A stretch of 64,000 bases of DNA, taken from the NCBI GenBank assembly GCA_956465555.1, contig OY101123.1:1984001-2048000 (forward strand), given 5' to 3'. This DNA is from Nitzschia sp. pyKryTriq1. Lineage: Eukaryota > Bacillariophyta > Bacillariophyceae > Bacillariales > Bacillariaceae. The notes beneath the pieces were generated by a model that did not search any database, had not been told where the DNA came from, and was given only the letters and a program-made list of their open reading frames with translations. The translations under genes and the position numbers were made by a program. Positions 43,487 to 49,479 of this stretch are shown here, in pieces (position 1 is the stretch's first letter; every line of letters begins with the position of its first letter).

Positions 43487-44320
43487 TACAAAAATTTGAA
43501 TCCCTCCATGATTGGTTTTGACGCCGATGGCAGAGCCAAAATCTTGATTGAAGGTGGATCCTTTGTCAACGCTCCTCCGAACGGGAACAGCAAGACAGTA
43601 GGCGAAGATCTCCTTTGCTACCAAGCCCCCGAAACGTTGTCGGGGGGGATGACGCCCCAGGCAAGCGGTGATGTCTATTCTTTCGCAATGATTTTGTGGG
43701 AGATTTCTACCTTGGAATCACCATATGAATCAATTGTTGGAAGTCGGCAGAAGGTTTCTAAAGACAAATTCGAGTCTCTTGTTGTTTCCAGGAAGCGACG
43801 CCCCAATCTATCCAAGGCTAGTATCCCCTCTGGATCCCTTCGCCAACTCATCGCCAGCGCCTGGGACCCCAACCCGGATGCCCGTCCTTCGTTTACGCGA
43901 GTGTGGTTAAACGTGGTGAAAGTATGCGAACAAGGAAGCTTGGATAACAAGACTGTTCCTTCCTCCTCTTGGAGCCTTGGTATTCGTGTGGCCGCCCACT
44001 TGAAGGCATTTCTCGGGAAGTCTTCCTCATCCAGCGAAGAACCGGGCACCACCAGCAGCCAGCGATCATTCTCCCAGAAGTCTGCTGTCTCAATGTCTTC
44101 GAGGGCAGGTAGCGAGAGGTCGCTCTCCCAGAGGGCTGTCTCAATGTCTTCGAGGACTAGTGGCGAACAAGACGATGACGCCGACTCCGTCTATTCGGAC
44201 GAAGAAGAAGAATCTGAACCATTCAGCATTCATTCCCACCGCCCGGCTCTCTCTGCCTCCTTCGTCCTGAAGCAAAAACAAGAAACCAAGCTGTCAACTG
44301 TTCTTTTCCTGAAGGCTTGA
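43487..44320 (+). pseudogene. Truncated TKL-type pseudokinase (C lobe only) with Ser-rich tail
   Basis: The open stretch begins at 43487 without an ATG; the first ATG is at 43508. It aligns with the back half of a tyrosine-kinase-like kinase. YKNLNPSMIGFD stands where HRDLKPxNIGFD is expected, so the catalytic Asp is Asn. KILIEGG stands where KIFDFG is expected, so the DFG Asp is lost. YQAPETLSGG, SGDVYSFAMILWEISTLESPY and LIASAWDPNPDARPSFTRV keep the APE, subdomain IX and XI motifs. The N lobe, with its glycine loop and Lys, is absent. A tail of two Ser-rich repeats (KSAVSMSSRAGSERS and RAVSMSSRTSGEQ) follows. It is either a decayed gene or a truncated scaffold. A short protein from the ATG at 43508 remains possible because the frame is open for 270 codons. 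Confidence 0.65.
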
Positions 44321-44751: not shown

Positions 44752-47700
44752 TCATGTAGCCCTCGCAGGAGCGGGGCTTTTCTTTTTGGCCCCATCAGCT
44801 GGTTCTTTCTTTCCCTTCCCTTTCCCAGTGTTCCACTTGCCTTCTACTTTGCGGGTGACCTCGATGGAACGGGCCGCTCCGTACGTGTCTTCGCCACCCG
44901 AGTGTCGTGGATTTTTGCTGTCGCCATTTTTATCCACTAGCTTACCCCACCTTCCCTTCTTGCCTTCTTTCACTCGTAGTTCTACCGGACCATGGGCAAA
45001 CACACATTTGTTTCGCTTTCGCATAGGACAGAACGTACCCATGCTTTCGTCCCAGTGATTGCAGAGCCGAGTTCGAAACTTTGGATCTTCCGCAGCGCGC
45101 TTGAGATTTTGATCTTTCTTACGAAACCCGGGATCGATTCTTCGAGCCCACTCTGCATCTGATCTGCTCCATCCACGACAGTTGAGCTCCTTGGCGGCTG
45201 TGCTTCCTTCCCATGCGATGACATCTTGTGCGGCCTCTGGCTGGGTTGGAGCATCGACTAACGAGGGTTCCAAACCTTCCGCCAAGGCTGCTTCGTTTGC
45301 TTTCCGTGTTTCAATGGTACTACGCTCTTGCACAATCGCGATTGTTGAGTCAACGTCCTTGGTATCAGGTAGAACCATCTCGTCTGTGTCCTCTCCTGTC
45401 CGACATGTGCTGTCACCATCTTCCGATTCCGGAAAGTCGTGTGGCTGAGGACTATCGCTCTCGTGTTGAACGACAAAAGACTTGGGAGTTGAAACAGTGG
45501 GCGTTGGACGCTTTGTAGGTTCTGGTGTTTGTGGTAGTGGTGGAATATCATATTTTACCATGAGAGGATCGTCAACGGTAAGTGCCGATCGGCTACAGTT
45601 CCAGCAATGCATCAAGAGGCGCGGAAATTTTTGTTCAAAGTATTCCAGGAGAGTATCTTGATTGGCGACCATGGCTGCGCGAAAGTCTTCTGGTAGCTCA
45701 TCAAAATGATGGTGCTTATTTCGAATCAATCGAAGTAAGTCACGTACCGACGATGGGTCGTAAGTACGGAAGCGCTGCATGTTGCTTATCAGTGGCTCGT
45801 CCAGTCTTTCGTCCCAAGACGTGCCCACCACATCGACAGCGCCGCGTTCAATCGCCAGGCTGCTGATCAGTTGAATAGATGTAGGCACTGTAGCGTCAGT
45901 TTCAAGCCGGTCTGAAAATTCACAGAGAAAGGACAGCTTCTTCTGAGACGCCCAGAAGAATGGATGCTCACAAATTTGCTTGGCAGTCGGTCGACGCGTG
46001 GGGTCGCGACTTAGCATGGATCGCACTAACTGATAAGCGTCGGGAGAAATCTTGTCCAAGGCTTCGATCGCTGGACGATTGTGCACAATATTTGCCTCTC
46101 GTTCGTACCATTCACCAAAGGGATGATAACCTGGAACAAGTGTCGAGTAAAAGATGCACCCAAGCGAAAAAATATCGACGGAGCGGCTAGTTCGAAGGTT
46201 TGGGGTGGGTAGATCGATAGGAGAAGCATCAGGATTGGCCGAGTTGCTCTCCCCTGACCGTGCCGAGGCGTCCGAGGCAACCCAACGCAGCGCCATGACC
46301 TCTGGAGCTTGCCATCCCACGCTCCCAGGCCCAACTCCAACAGAACTCGTGCCCCCTTTCGTTCCCTGGAATGAAGAAGTGGCCATCATGCTGCCACCGA
46401 GACTACTCTGCCCAGCGATTTGTTTCCCCAAACCCATGTCTGATATCTTGGCAATATAGGAACCATCGAGAAAAGTTTGGTAAGTATTAGTATCTTCTTT
46501 TTTCGCCTTCTTCTTCCCATTCTTGGTGATAGCCAGCAATATGTTTGCTGGCTTCAAATCCCGATGAACAATTCGAAGACTGTGCAAGTGGTGCACTCCA
46601 GATACAATTTGCTGCAACACTAGCTTGGTGGCGGTCAAAGGGATCATGGGCGCTTGCCTAGAGAGAACAAGGTCAGATGATGCTGGTTCGTTGGCTCGTA
46701 GCACACCAATCATATCATGAAGTGATAGATCACAGAGCTCTAATGCCAAGTAAACAAAATCTCCACGAACTTCCTTGAGGAAGTATCGAACCACATTGGG
46801 GTGACCATCGCTTTCGATCAAGAGTCTAATCTCACGATCAGCACTAGCATGGTAGGCCTTGAGCATTCGCTTGACAGCCACGTCACGCCCGTCCAATACA
46901 CCCTTGTAGACCACGGTTCCTTGACCACCGAAACCAAGTACCTGATCGCTGACTTGAATGACATGTTGCTGCTGCAACTGAACTTGTTGAGAGGGTTGCA
47001 CAGTCTGTATGGCGACTGGTACCGAAGCCTCGGTCATTGCTGCTCCATTTTGTTTGGAAGTATCCTTGATTTCGCCGTCTGGACCTTTCAAGATCCCTGG
47101 CGGGGTGGTGGCACCATTTTCCGTGGAGGATGATTCGTCCTGTAATCGTTTTCGGCGTCCTAGCTCAAAGGATAGTACGAAGATCAAGGCGATCGTAGGC
47201 GGAAGCCACGAGCCCAGGATTTTCAATATTTTGGAGTATCGAGATTTCGGGCGTGGATTTTTGGGCACAAAGTGATTGGTATTCACATATCCGTAGTCAG
47301 GATGATACACCACGGCTGCGGGTTGTTGCTGCTGCTGCTGCTGCTGCTTGTTTTTGCTGTGAGATATCAATGCCATTTCATGAGAGTTTCGTTTGATATC
47401 ATCAAAAGGTGGAAGACCTTCCGATTGAAATCGATTGTCGTTTCCCCTCGCAAAATAGTCGATTCTTGGCGGTTGATGTTTGTGGTGATCAACGAGACAT
47501 GAGGGGAAATTCGATGAGGTTGGGTGACAGGGCTTTCGGTGAGAGGACGACGTTTCGTGATGGTGATGGTGATCGGACGTGTGGGAGGACAGGTGGGTTG
47601 CCCCACGCCCTCCCGACAACTTGGGCACAGTCTTGTGTTTAGACGCAGCAGTGGAGGCTATTGCCGCGGCGTGATGATTCGATGAGTGAAGCACTGACGA

Positions 47701-49479
47701 TGTTCCTTTTATTGCTGATGAAGCCGATCGCCGTTTCCCAAGAGGAAGTGCATAGAGCTGGCCACTTCCTTCTAGTCGACCGACGATAGTTTGGTCGGCC
47801 TCACCACCATCTCTAGAGCCAACATGATCTTCCGAATACGCTGTGTTGGCGGCATCCAGTAATTCCACCTGCCTTTCCAATTCTCTACTCAAATAATCCA
47901 TATCATTGGAGGATGGAAGGGTTACGTCGGGAATGATATCCACCTCGACCGCTCTTCCCGTCGTTGCATCCATGGCAAAGGCAATCGGCGTCTTGAACTG
48001 TTCCTGGGCCACCCATTGGACCGTACCCGAATCATCGGGGTAAAGAAGAGCCAGATTCCCACTGGGTGTCGAAATGAGTCGAGCTTGTGCTTGGTGATGA
48101 TGATGATGCAGGAGGGAGGAAGGTCCATCCTCTGCTGTTGTCGAGGCAACATCAGCTGCAGCAAGGGATCCATCGGGGAGTGCCTTCCATTGCTCCGCCC
48201 AAGGATTCAATCGGTCGCTCTTTCCATTAGCTTGAGAGGCCTCTCCACCACCACCACCACCACCACCACCACCAGTGGATGAGCTCAATCGCATGTCCTC
48301 TACATTCATGATTTCCGAGACACTGAATTGTACATTACGGATCCCCGTCCGAGCATCTTGTACTGTTACCGAGTAATCCACTCGTCCCATCCAAAAGACT
48401 GATGATTGGGGTCGACCATCAGCACCACTCCCCCCTTTCAATATGGAATCTTGAAATTTGGGATCATCCTCATCTTGTTTGATGCCGCCGCCGCCGCCGC
48501 CGCCACCGGCAAATGACGACGACGACGACGATGACGATACGACACTCAGTATTTCTCCGGTATATTTGTCAATGGCGGCCGCTGTGGTATGCCGACTGCC
48601 GACATAGAATCGACCTTGTGGGTCCAAAAAGGGCGCTCGTTGGACCAATTCCTTGACACTGGTACTGACCGTGATGGGGGCAGTTGAAGTAGTACTCGTA
48701 GATCCTTCGGATGTGGATGCGGATGTGGATGTTGTCAAATAGACATTGCCATCAATACTTGGAACAGCGGCAGTATTACTCGAAGCTGCCGTCTGTGTGG
48801 TGGTAGTGGTTGATAATAAAGGTCGAAGGAGCGCTGATGCGTCACTGCGTGTGCCACTTTCTTCTCCGCCTAGTGATACGTGATGGTGATTGTTGCTGTT
48901 GCTGTTGCTGTTGCTGTTTCGTTTGTGGTTTTGGCTCATCGGTTGCATTCTTCCCGAGGGCGTCGTACCGACGTGATGGTCTTGATCGGAAGACTGCTTC
49001 CATAACAGAGCCCCCGTGGCTCTTGAAATTCCAGCCAGGGTACCGTCTACCGTCATGACCACCAGAATGCTGTCCTCCTCATCCGCTCCTACTACTCGCT
49101 GCCTCGGGCGGTTGTTGTTTTCGTTGGATGATGATGATGAGGATGATTCCTGATTATGACTATGATGACTTCTTGATGACGAAGGCGCCTCAATCTCGGA
49201 CGGTGCCAGTCGATCTACGGAATGATCGTTGCCTTGCGCTGTCGTTGCAGCTGTTGCAGCTGCTTGCACCACAACTTGATACCTCGGATGGGTCAGGGCT
49301 GCCAAACTAAAAGTCAAGACCAACAAATAGGCAAACGTGGATAGTTTTTTAAGTCTTCCAAGTTTCAGTTTTTGGGATATTCGATTGGTGCTGTTGTTGC
49401 TGTTGCTGTTGCTGTTGTTGTTGTTGCGAAAATTCCCACTGATGGTGGCCAAAGTGGATAATGCCGCCTTCATCGCCAT
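44752..49479 (-). CDS. IRE1: IRE1-type unfolded-protein sensor (kinase/RNase) with C-terminal CCCH zinc finger
   Basis: An intronless 1575-residue protein. An N-terminal hydrophobic signal anchor (LSTFAYLLVLTFSLAAL) is followed by a luminal beta-type domain (ILVVMTVDGTLAGISRATG, GRFYVGSRHTTAAAIDKYTG), a membrane helix near residues 745-770 (WLPPTIALIFVLSFELG), a kinase (about 845-1180: VLGFGGQGTVVYKG, VAVKRML, IVHRDLKPANIL, SDMGLGK, SVGWQAPEV), and the KEN ribonuclease domain (about 1180-1295). In the latter TYDPSSVRDLLRLIRNKHHH keeps the Tyr, Asn-Lys and His of the human active site, so it should cleave RNA during ER stress. After a 180-residue acidic linker comes a CCCH finger (LCNHWDESMGTFCP, then CVFAHG) near 1473-1500 and a basic Gly/Lys tail. 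Yeast and human IRE1 end at the KEN domain; this finger is an added RNA-binding candidate. Confidence 0.9.
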   Translation of the reverse strand: MAMKAALSTLATISGNFRNNNNSNSNSNNSTNRISQKLKLGRLKKLSTFAYLLVLTFSLAALTHPRYQVVVQAAATAATTAQGNDHSVDRLAPSEIEAPSSSRSHHSHNQESSSSSSSNENNNRPRQRVVGADEEDSILVVMTVDGTLAGISRATGALLWKQSSDQDHHVGTTPSGRMQPMSQNHKRNSNSNSNSNNHHHVSLGGEESGTRSDASALLRPLLSTTTTTQTAASSNTAAVPSIDGNVYLTTSTSASTSEGSTSTTSTAPITVSTSVKELVQRAPFLDPQGRFYVGSRHTTAAAIDKYTGEILSVVSSSSSSSSFAGGGGGGGGIKQDEDDPKFQDSILKGGSGADGRPQSSVFWMGRVDYSVTVQDARTGIRNVQFSVSEIMNVEDMRLSSSTGGGGGGGGGGEASQANGKSDRLNPWAEQWKALPDGSLAAADVASTTAEDGPSSLLHHHHHQAQARLISTPSGNLALLYPDDSGTVQWVAQEQFKTPIAFAMDATTGRAVEVDIIPDVTLPSSNDMDYLSRELERQVELLDAANTAYSEDHVGSRDGGEADQTIVGRLEGSGQLYALPLGKRRSASSAIKGTSSVLHSSNHHAAAIASTAASKHKTVPKLSGGRGATHLSSHTSDHHHHHETSSSHRKPCHPTSSNFPSCLVDHHKHQPPRIDYFARGNDNRFQSEGLPPFDDIKRNSHEMALISHSKNKQQQQQQQQPAAVVYHPDYGYVNTNHFVPKNPRPKSRYSKILKILGSWLPPTIALIFVLSFELGRRKRLQDESSSTENGATTPPGILKGPDGEIKDTSKQNGAAMTEASVPVAIQTVQPSQQVQLQQQHVIQVSDQVLGFGGQGTVVYKGVLDGRDVAVKRMLKAYHASADREIRLLIESDGHPNVVRYFLKEVRGDFVYLALELCDLSLHDMIGVLRANEPASSDLVLSRQAPMIPLTATKLVLQQIVSGVHHLHSLRIVHRDLKPANILLAITKNGKKKAKKEDTNTYQTFLDGSYIAKISDMGLGKQIAGQSSLGGSMMATSSFQGTKGGTSSVGVGPGSVGWQAPEVMALRWVASDASARSGESNSANPDASPIDLPTPNLRTSRSVDIFSLGCIFYSTLVPGYHPFGEWYEREANIVHNRPAIEALDKISPDAYQLVRSMLSRDPTRRPTAKQICEHPFFWASQKKLSFLCEFSDRLETDATVPTSIQLISSLAIERGAVDVVGTSWDERLDEPLISNMQRFRTYDPSSVRDLLRLIRNKHHHFDELPEDFRAAMVANQDTLLEYFEQKFPRLLMHCWNCSRSALTVDDPLMVKYDIPPLPQTPEPTKRPTPTVSTPKSFVVQHESDSPQPHDFPESEDGDSTCRTGEDTDEMVLPDTKDVDSTIAIVQERSTIETRKANEAALAEGLEPSLVDAPTQPEAAQDVIAWEGSTAAKELNCRGWSRSDAEWARRIDPGFRKKDQNLKRAAEDPKFRTRLCNHWDESMGTFCPMRKRNKCVFAHGPVELRVKEGKKGRWGKLVDKNGDSKNPRHSGGEDTYGAARSIEVTRKVEGKWNTGKGKGKKEPADGAKKKSPAPARAT

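Follow-up and report, generated by a model that had tools for sequence, protein, structure and literature searches.

An IRE1 gene with an extended C terminus

The window analysed here, a 64,000-nucleotide stretch on contig C9 of a 40.65 Mb genome, carries on its minus strand a standard-code open frame of 1575 codons plus stop (44752..49479). This frame, P0001, is an IRE1 with a signal-like segment, one transmembrane helix, a kinase and a KEN domain; the coordinates of its features below are all on the minus strand. A hydrophobic segment near the N terminus, likely an ER signal (residues 46-64; 49288..49344; hydropathy 1.57), is followed by the lumenal region (47230..49287) and by the transmembrane helix (residues 751-769; 47173..47229), which is the top hydropathy window at 1.89. 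Both segments were called by hydropathy, and the one other window above 1.3 lies inside the kinase. The lumenal region is weakly similar to IRE1 lumenal chains: phmmer against the PDB returned 2hz6 at E 0.0018, 6shc at E 0.021 and a third at 0.72, with unrelated chains interspersed from E 0.072, and Pfam returned PQQ_2 at E 0.015, under its cut-off.

The cytosolic part is far better defined. The kinase domain (residues 845-1180; 45940..46947; PF00069, E 6.7e-36) contains HRDLKPAN and DMG motifs, and directly after it comes the KEN ribonuclease domain (residues 1181-1300; 45580..45939; PF06479, E 8.5e-34), both matches standing above cut-off. IRE1 kinase-RNase chains in the PDB match P0001 at E 4e-82, and the 16 best PDB sequences are, without exception, named IRE1. 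The active-site stretch of KEN reads RNKHHHF in the diatom, RNKYHHF in 2rio and 3fbv, which we take to be yeast IRE1 structures, and RNKYHNF in 3sdj, presumably a catalytic mutant of IRE1. In the alignment to IRE1 chains the active site retains its R, the following polar N and its H, residues whose roles are given in PMC3710099. P0001 is the single IRE1 detected in this genome: a genome-wide KEN search at E 0.001 returned its KEN domain as the only match. The kinase motif at window position 46443 is DMG, where the compared IRE1 chains have DFG. On the opposite strand lies a convergent open frame (43487-44320, plus) that is kinase-like by eye; its end and the stop of the IRE1 frame are about 430 bases apart.

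Behind KEN the frame runs on to residue 1575 without a stop, so that KEN and finger share one uninterrupted frame, as a preliminary description of this DNA had stated. It passes through an acidic linker (residues 1301-1440; 45160..45579) to a CCCH-like finger with its lead-in KFRTRL (residues 1467-1502; 44974..45081) and ends in a basic tail (residues 1503-1575; 44755..44973). Charge counts bear out the acidic and basic character that had been assigned to linker and tail: 12 K/R against 28 D/E in residues 1300-1440 (141 residues), and 21 K/R against 10 D/E in residues 1497-1575.

The finger is atypical but stands above chance

The finger reads KFRTRL-C-x10-C-x7-C-x3-H-GPVELRVKEGKKGRWG, after which the basic tail begins. 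Its presumed zinc ligands (44992..45063) are C1473 (codon 45063-45061), C1484 (45030-45028), C1492 (45006-45004) and H1496 (44994-44992). The preliminary description gave the spacing as x10-x6-x3; the first and last intervals stand, and residue positions correct the middle one to x7. This is longer than the C-x8-C-x5-C-x3-H of Pfam. Likeness to tristetraprolin (TTP)-type fingers is visible in the PDB alignment rows, in the lead-in ahead of the first Cys, in CxFAHG and in the ELR that follows. The lead-in is shared with the fingers of tristetraprolin/BRF2 and Unkempt, as are, in several rows, FAHG and an LR motif; the diatom protein differs from them in its spacing, in having a single finger and in lacking YG between the second and third Cys, where it has RKRN.

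How far can such a sequence be trusted as a finger? With phmmer, the best PDB chains were 9y10 (E 6.5e-6), tristetraprolin (1.2e-4) and BRF2 (9.7e-4), each value being summed over two fingers, and the best single-stretch match reached E 0.0047. A profile of nine PDB fingers scored 22.0 bits on the tail, against a maximum of 7.1 when the same 276 residues were shuffled 20,000 times; the profile rows were picked for having matched the finger, and the shuffles were scored with the identical profile. The bare ligand pattern C-x4-15-C-x4-8-C-x3-H is weaker evidence, because 20 of 20,000 shuffles contain one, whereas none contained the pattern together with lead-in and FAHG. We conclude that this is an atypical CCCH-like finger whose ligands lie above chance. 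Zinc and RNA binding would follow from what is known of the family.

Pfam's own CCCH models did not reach their cut-offs. The finger fragment scored 9.7 bits with PF00642 (cut-off 20.5) and 15.7 bits with zf-CCCH_UNK (cut-off 31.1), a scan of the whole protein at E 1 called no finger, and the P0001 finger was absent from the matches of genome searches with these two models. The claim of a CCCH finger holds for the three Cys and the His, the lead-in and FAHG, and not for Pfam recognition; the earlier interpretation is supported as to a single-frame IRE1 with a CCCH-like finger, whose spacing is non-canonical and which has RKRN in place of YG. Confidence was low in two single-sequence AlphaFold2 models, with a mean pLDDT of 40.8 in one and 53.4 in the other.

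Sequence so far off consensus might also mark a decayed or neutral C-terminal addition confined to one lineage. We consider this distinctly improbable, since the finger has its four ligands together with lead-in and FAHG, and the region has retained its coding character (see below).

Searching the genome with the finger at E 10 gave one other match, a TTP-like gene at E 0.045, so the finger is no repeated module at the sensitivity tested. The zf-CCCH_UNK search of the genome gave three matches, none over cut-off: L140 is this TTP-like gene (L003) and L141 a different multi-finger protein, and L139 has no suitable frame on either strand. Elsewhere, the genes at C1:3942469-3942897 and C3:2798145-2798573 carry three zf-CCCH matches each, with identical scores, and are perhaps a recent duplication. 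Four scans of viral contigs found no relatives. A scan of genome contigs used two kinase motifs as patterns, a design poorly aimed at KEN or finger, and the best 80 of its 365 confirmed stretches were all labelled as bacterial.

The finger and KEN lie in one coding frame

An open frame can join two genes merely for want of a stop. We therefore scored codon usage with a model trained on 10,666 codons, taken from the 20 other frames in the window that reach 300 codons; these frames were delimited mechanically and are not verified genes. The in-frame score was positive throughout the lumenal part, kinase, KEN, linker, finger and tail (0.08 to 0.26 bits/codon), with 0.08 in KEN, 0.19 in the linker, 0.16 in the finger and 0.26 in the tail; the other frames gave -0.46 to 0.08. 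On the same strand, the 350 bases downstream of the IRE1 stop scored -0.07 to 0.03 in the three frames. A scan for GTRNG donors found none from residue 1246 to residue 1442, and the scanned stretch held neither AATAAA nor ATTAAA.

Because linker, finger and tail score as coding in frame and no GTRNG site occurs between residues 1246 and 1442, a separate gene for the finger is unlikely. The wider proposition, that the finger belongs to another gene or transcript or is spliced out, could draw on in-frame ATGs at residues 1307 and 1368 and on GTRNG sites, two just before the finger (residues 1443 and 1453) and five within or behind it (1481, 1492, 1510, 1512 and 1532). Against this proposition stand the in-frame coding scores, the lack of GTRNG sites from residue 1246 to 1442, the lack of AATAAA and ATTAAA in the scanned stretch and the genome search with the finger, which at E 10 gave the TTP-like gene and no further copy; we judge it highly improbable. 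A separate transcript, the outcome that the preliminary description had set against fusion, is accordingly disfavoured by the in-frame coding scores. The donor-like sites at 1443 and 1453 remain, and the latter, GTAAGA, could permit a splice form without the finger.

Relation to known proteins

Like yeast and animal IRE1, the diatom protein has one transmembrane helix, a kinase and a KEN domain with a matching active-site stretch, together with a putative lumenal region; it differs from them in its DMG in place of DFG and in what follows KEN, namely the acidic linker, the CCCH-like finger and the basic tail. Regnase-1/MCPIP1 is a PIN-domain nuclease and is not known to have a kinase, KEN or lumenal sensor. 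The Pfam scan of P0001 at E 1 showed no PIN or NYN nuclease, a Regnase-1 feature, and no ankyrin repeats before the kinase, an RNase L feature. What Regnase-1 shares with P0001 is the presence of an endoribonuclease and a CCCH finger in one protein (PMC6805641).

This class of architecture had been noted earlier. The KEN row of Table 1 in a survey of HEPN domains reads 'Fused to S/T/Y-Kinase, along with ankyrin repeats, CCCH in some' (Anantharaman et al., 2013; PMC3710099), and by virtue of this phrase the KEN-CCCH fusion is already on record. The proteins so described combine a KEN-kinase fusion with CCCH, as P0001 does, and P0001 may belong to that set, which the table phrase alone defines for our comparison. 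Beyond this phrase, among the matches listed from the open-licence PMC literature, we found no description of a KEN-CCCH IRE1 or of what such a finger does, and no characterised diatom IRE1; a kelp transcript is labelled ERN1/IRE1 in a figure legend (PMC6742357). The preliminary description had added that animal IRE1 stops soon after KEN, which was too strong, as a figure legend in PMC4279078 speaks of animal Ire1s with C-terminal extensions. What stands is that the single-frame IRE1 variant is real.

A possible docking site for mRNA

The way in which IRE1 chooses its mRNAs varies by lineage and is partly understood. In yeast, HAC1 mRNA docks on a basic element of the cytosolic linker of Ire1 before it is cleaved, and splicing needs this docking (PMC4279078). 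The same paper describes that a U1A RNA-binding module, inserted into yeast Ire1 deleted for this [+]-box, considerably restores splicing. The fungal [+]-box and the diatom extension have in common a basic element on a flexible tether near the kinase and RNase; the fungal element sits between membrane and kinase and docks mRNA (PMC4279078), whereas the diatom finger lies behind KEN and its docking is what we propose. By eye, the diatom membrane-kinase linker holds a juxtamembrane RRKR and scattered lysines, with no other basic cluster in residues 777-846, and a fungal-type basic box is absent from it. By analogy, finger and tail could dock mRNA in place of that box.

We envisage that stress sensing in the lumen would cluster IRE1 and that the kinase module would then activate KEN. 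Carried on a tether of some 165 residues, acidic for the most part, the finger and the basic tail would dock mRNA beside the RNase, and such docking would raise the local concentration of substrate and add selectivity. RNA recruitment by the finger is plausible, in view of its TTP-type closest solved relatives and the yeast precedent. TTP-type fingers bind RNA. Alternatively, the finger might be a zinc-dependent protein-protein or regulatory module, serving oligomer control, autoinhibition or partner binding, and no RNA dock at all. Its atypical spacing, the missed CCCH cut-offs and the RKRN where TTP-type fingers have YG would suit such a module, but its best solved relatives are TTP-type fingers and both finger and tail are basic; we rate such a role as unlikely. 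Docking of mRNA beside the RNase, by analogy with the fungal [+]-box, is the likeliest role, and we lean modestly towards it.

A candidate substrate among the bZIP genes

The preliminary description had suggested a search for a diatom mRNA spliced by IRE1. This yielded one candidate, the bZIP gene L091, with mixed support from RNA structure, and a weaker second bridge in L104. The loci searched, 55 in all and 27 of them distinct, came from 30 of the 32 bZIP_1 matches and from the matches to bZIP_2. IRE1 substrate loops are 7 nt long, follow a rule of C1, G3 and G6 and are cut after G3. Strict and relaxed scans for such loops covered the plus strand of each locus, and genes were missed where loci came from minus-strand matches (15 of the 30 bZIP_1 loci). 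The strict scan, which required 4-bp stems, found four pairs where shuffles predict 0.05; every span was a multiple of three and the sequences were, by eye, repeats of the CAG/CTG type, and these pairs were set aside. Relaxed loops gave two extensions of at least 50 codons: L103 (22 nt, adding 100 codons), which was rejected on its coding score (0.05, -0.12), and L091 (71 nt, adding 76).

A bridge test on coding scores was run over the 27 distinct loci and over the window, on both strands in each case, with frames of at least 120 codons, spans up to 300 nt and coding filters fixed after L091 was known; only L091 passed. With looser limits (frames down to 80 codons, spans to 500 nt, both strands of the 55 loci), there were 11 distinct bridges of at least 50 codons, and at unchanged coding thresholds both flanks were positive in two, L091 (0.19, 0.22) and L104. 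The latter, a 240-nt bridge on the minus strand of its locus (1139-1379; C16, near 225035), has flanks of 0.11 and 0.34 and lies ahead of the bZIP. Learning ordinary donors from coding scores placed GTRNG in 12 of the 65 best bridges, against about 8 expected.

In L091 (C7:1075172), the bZIP frame stops at base 1896, a short way past the loop CAG^CCGT (1883-1889), and a second loop, CAG^CAGT (1954-1960), lies 71 nt further on; both conform to the C1, G3, G6 rule. Joining the cuts adds 76 codons of an acidic C-terminal frame that ends in DIDESELGEFLLDTFDAMEAQGNLLAQLEMPI. The stretch from about 1750 to 1884 scores as coding (0.21), that from 1885 to 1956 as non-coding in every forward frame and that from 1959 to 2195 as coding again (0.24). 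The model trained on the window alone agreed, with 0.20, then -0.70, -0.02 and -0.30 in the middle, then 0.22. Only one GT-AG join at these borders preserves the frame, AGCC/GTGTCA with GTGAAG/AT (slashes mark the join), and it removes 77 nt; a GC-AG join is also present. Other in-frame joins, such as CCAG/GTGCGG with TTCCAG/CAG, would remove a stretch that scores as coding.

The predicted structure is less uniform. A 160-nt segment around the sites folds better than each of 200 shuffles (z -3.5), and in this fold a 13-pair stem links the two exons and encloses the pair of sites; a 130-nt stretch gave z -0.3, and the two hairpins alone z -0.9 and 0.1. For the 5' loop, the probability of closing is 0.82 to 0.87 when 160 nt are folded, 0.91 to 0.96 with 37 nt and 0.22 with 55 nt. 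For the 3' loop it is 0.14 to 0.15 with 160 nt, 0.04 with 35 nt, where the outermost pair has 0.01, and 0.01 with 50 nt. Rfam gave no match on L091 up to E 5, and a PDB search with its bZIP protein gave none at E 0.01. A second bZIP match, C7:1076545, lies on the opposite strand about 1.2 kb from L091. From these sequence features, L091 is a tentative candidate for an IRE1 substrate, at appreciably less than even probability.

RNA ligation and implications

A search for RtcB at E 0.001, which was positive in 9 of 14 control genomes, did not find it in this one. A T4-type RNA ligase domain scored over cut-off (1.9e-8) at C3:1554788 (L142, L145), in a frame of 1105 codons that also contains VYVPGIPGCGKSS, by eye a P-loop; Pfam, run on 893 of the 1105 codons, returned the ligase domain only. 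This putative layout of ligase and P-loop recalls Trl1/RLG1, the enzyme that seals HAC1 and plant bZIP60. The genome also holds eight silicon-transporter family matches over cut-off, of which seven span almost the whole family model at E <1e-260. With these eight matches the genome fits a diatom; other silica-scaled algae carry silicon-transporter genes too.

A fuller scheme would have the finger replace the [+]-box and L091 serve as the main substrate, its 71-nt non-spliceosomal intron being cut at CAG^CCGT and CAG^CAGT and its ends sealed by the Trl1/RLG1-like ligase. Taken as a whole we hold this scheme to be quite unlikely. If docking by the finger, cutting of L091 and sealing by the ligase all proved true, they would make up a complete diatom arm of the unfolded protein response. 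With a candidate substrate in this genome, the question of how the enzyme picks its mRNAs can be put to the test and, if docking is true, an IRE1 with a tethered finger would be a natural counterpart of the synthetic docking bypass built in yeast.
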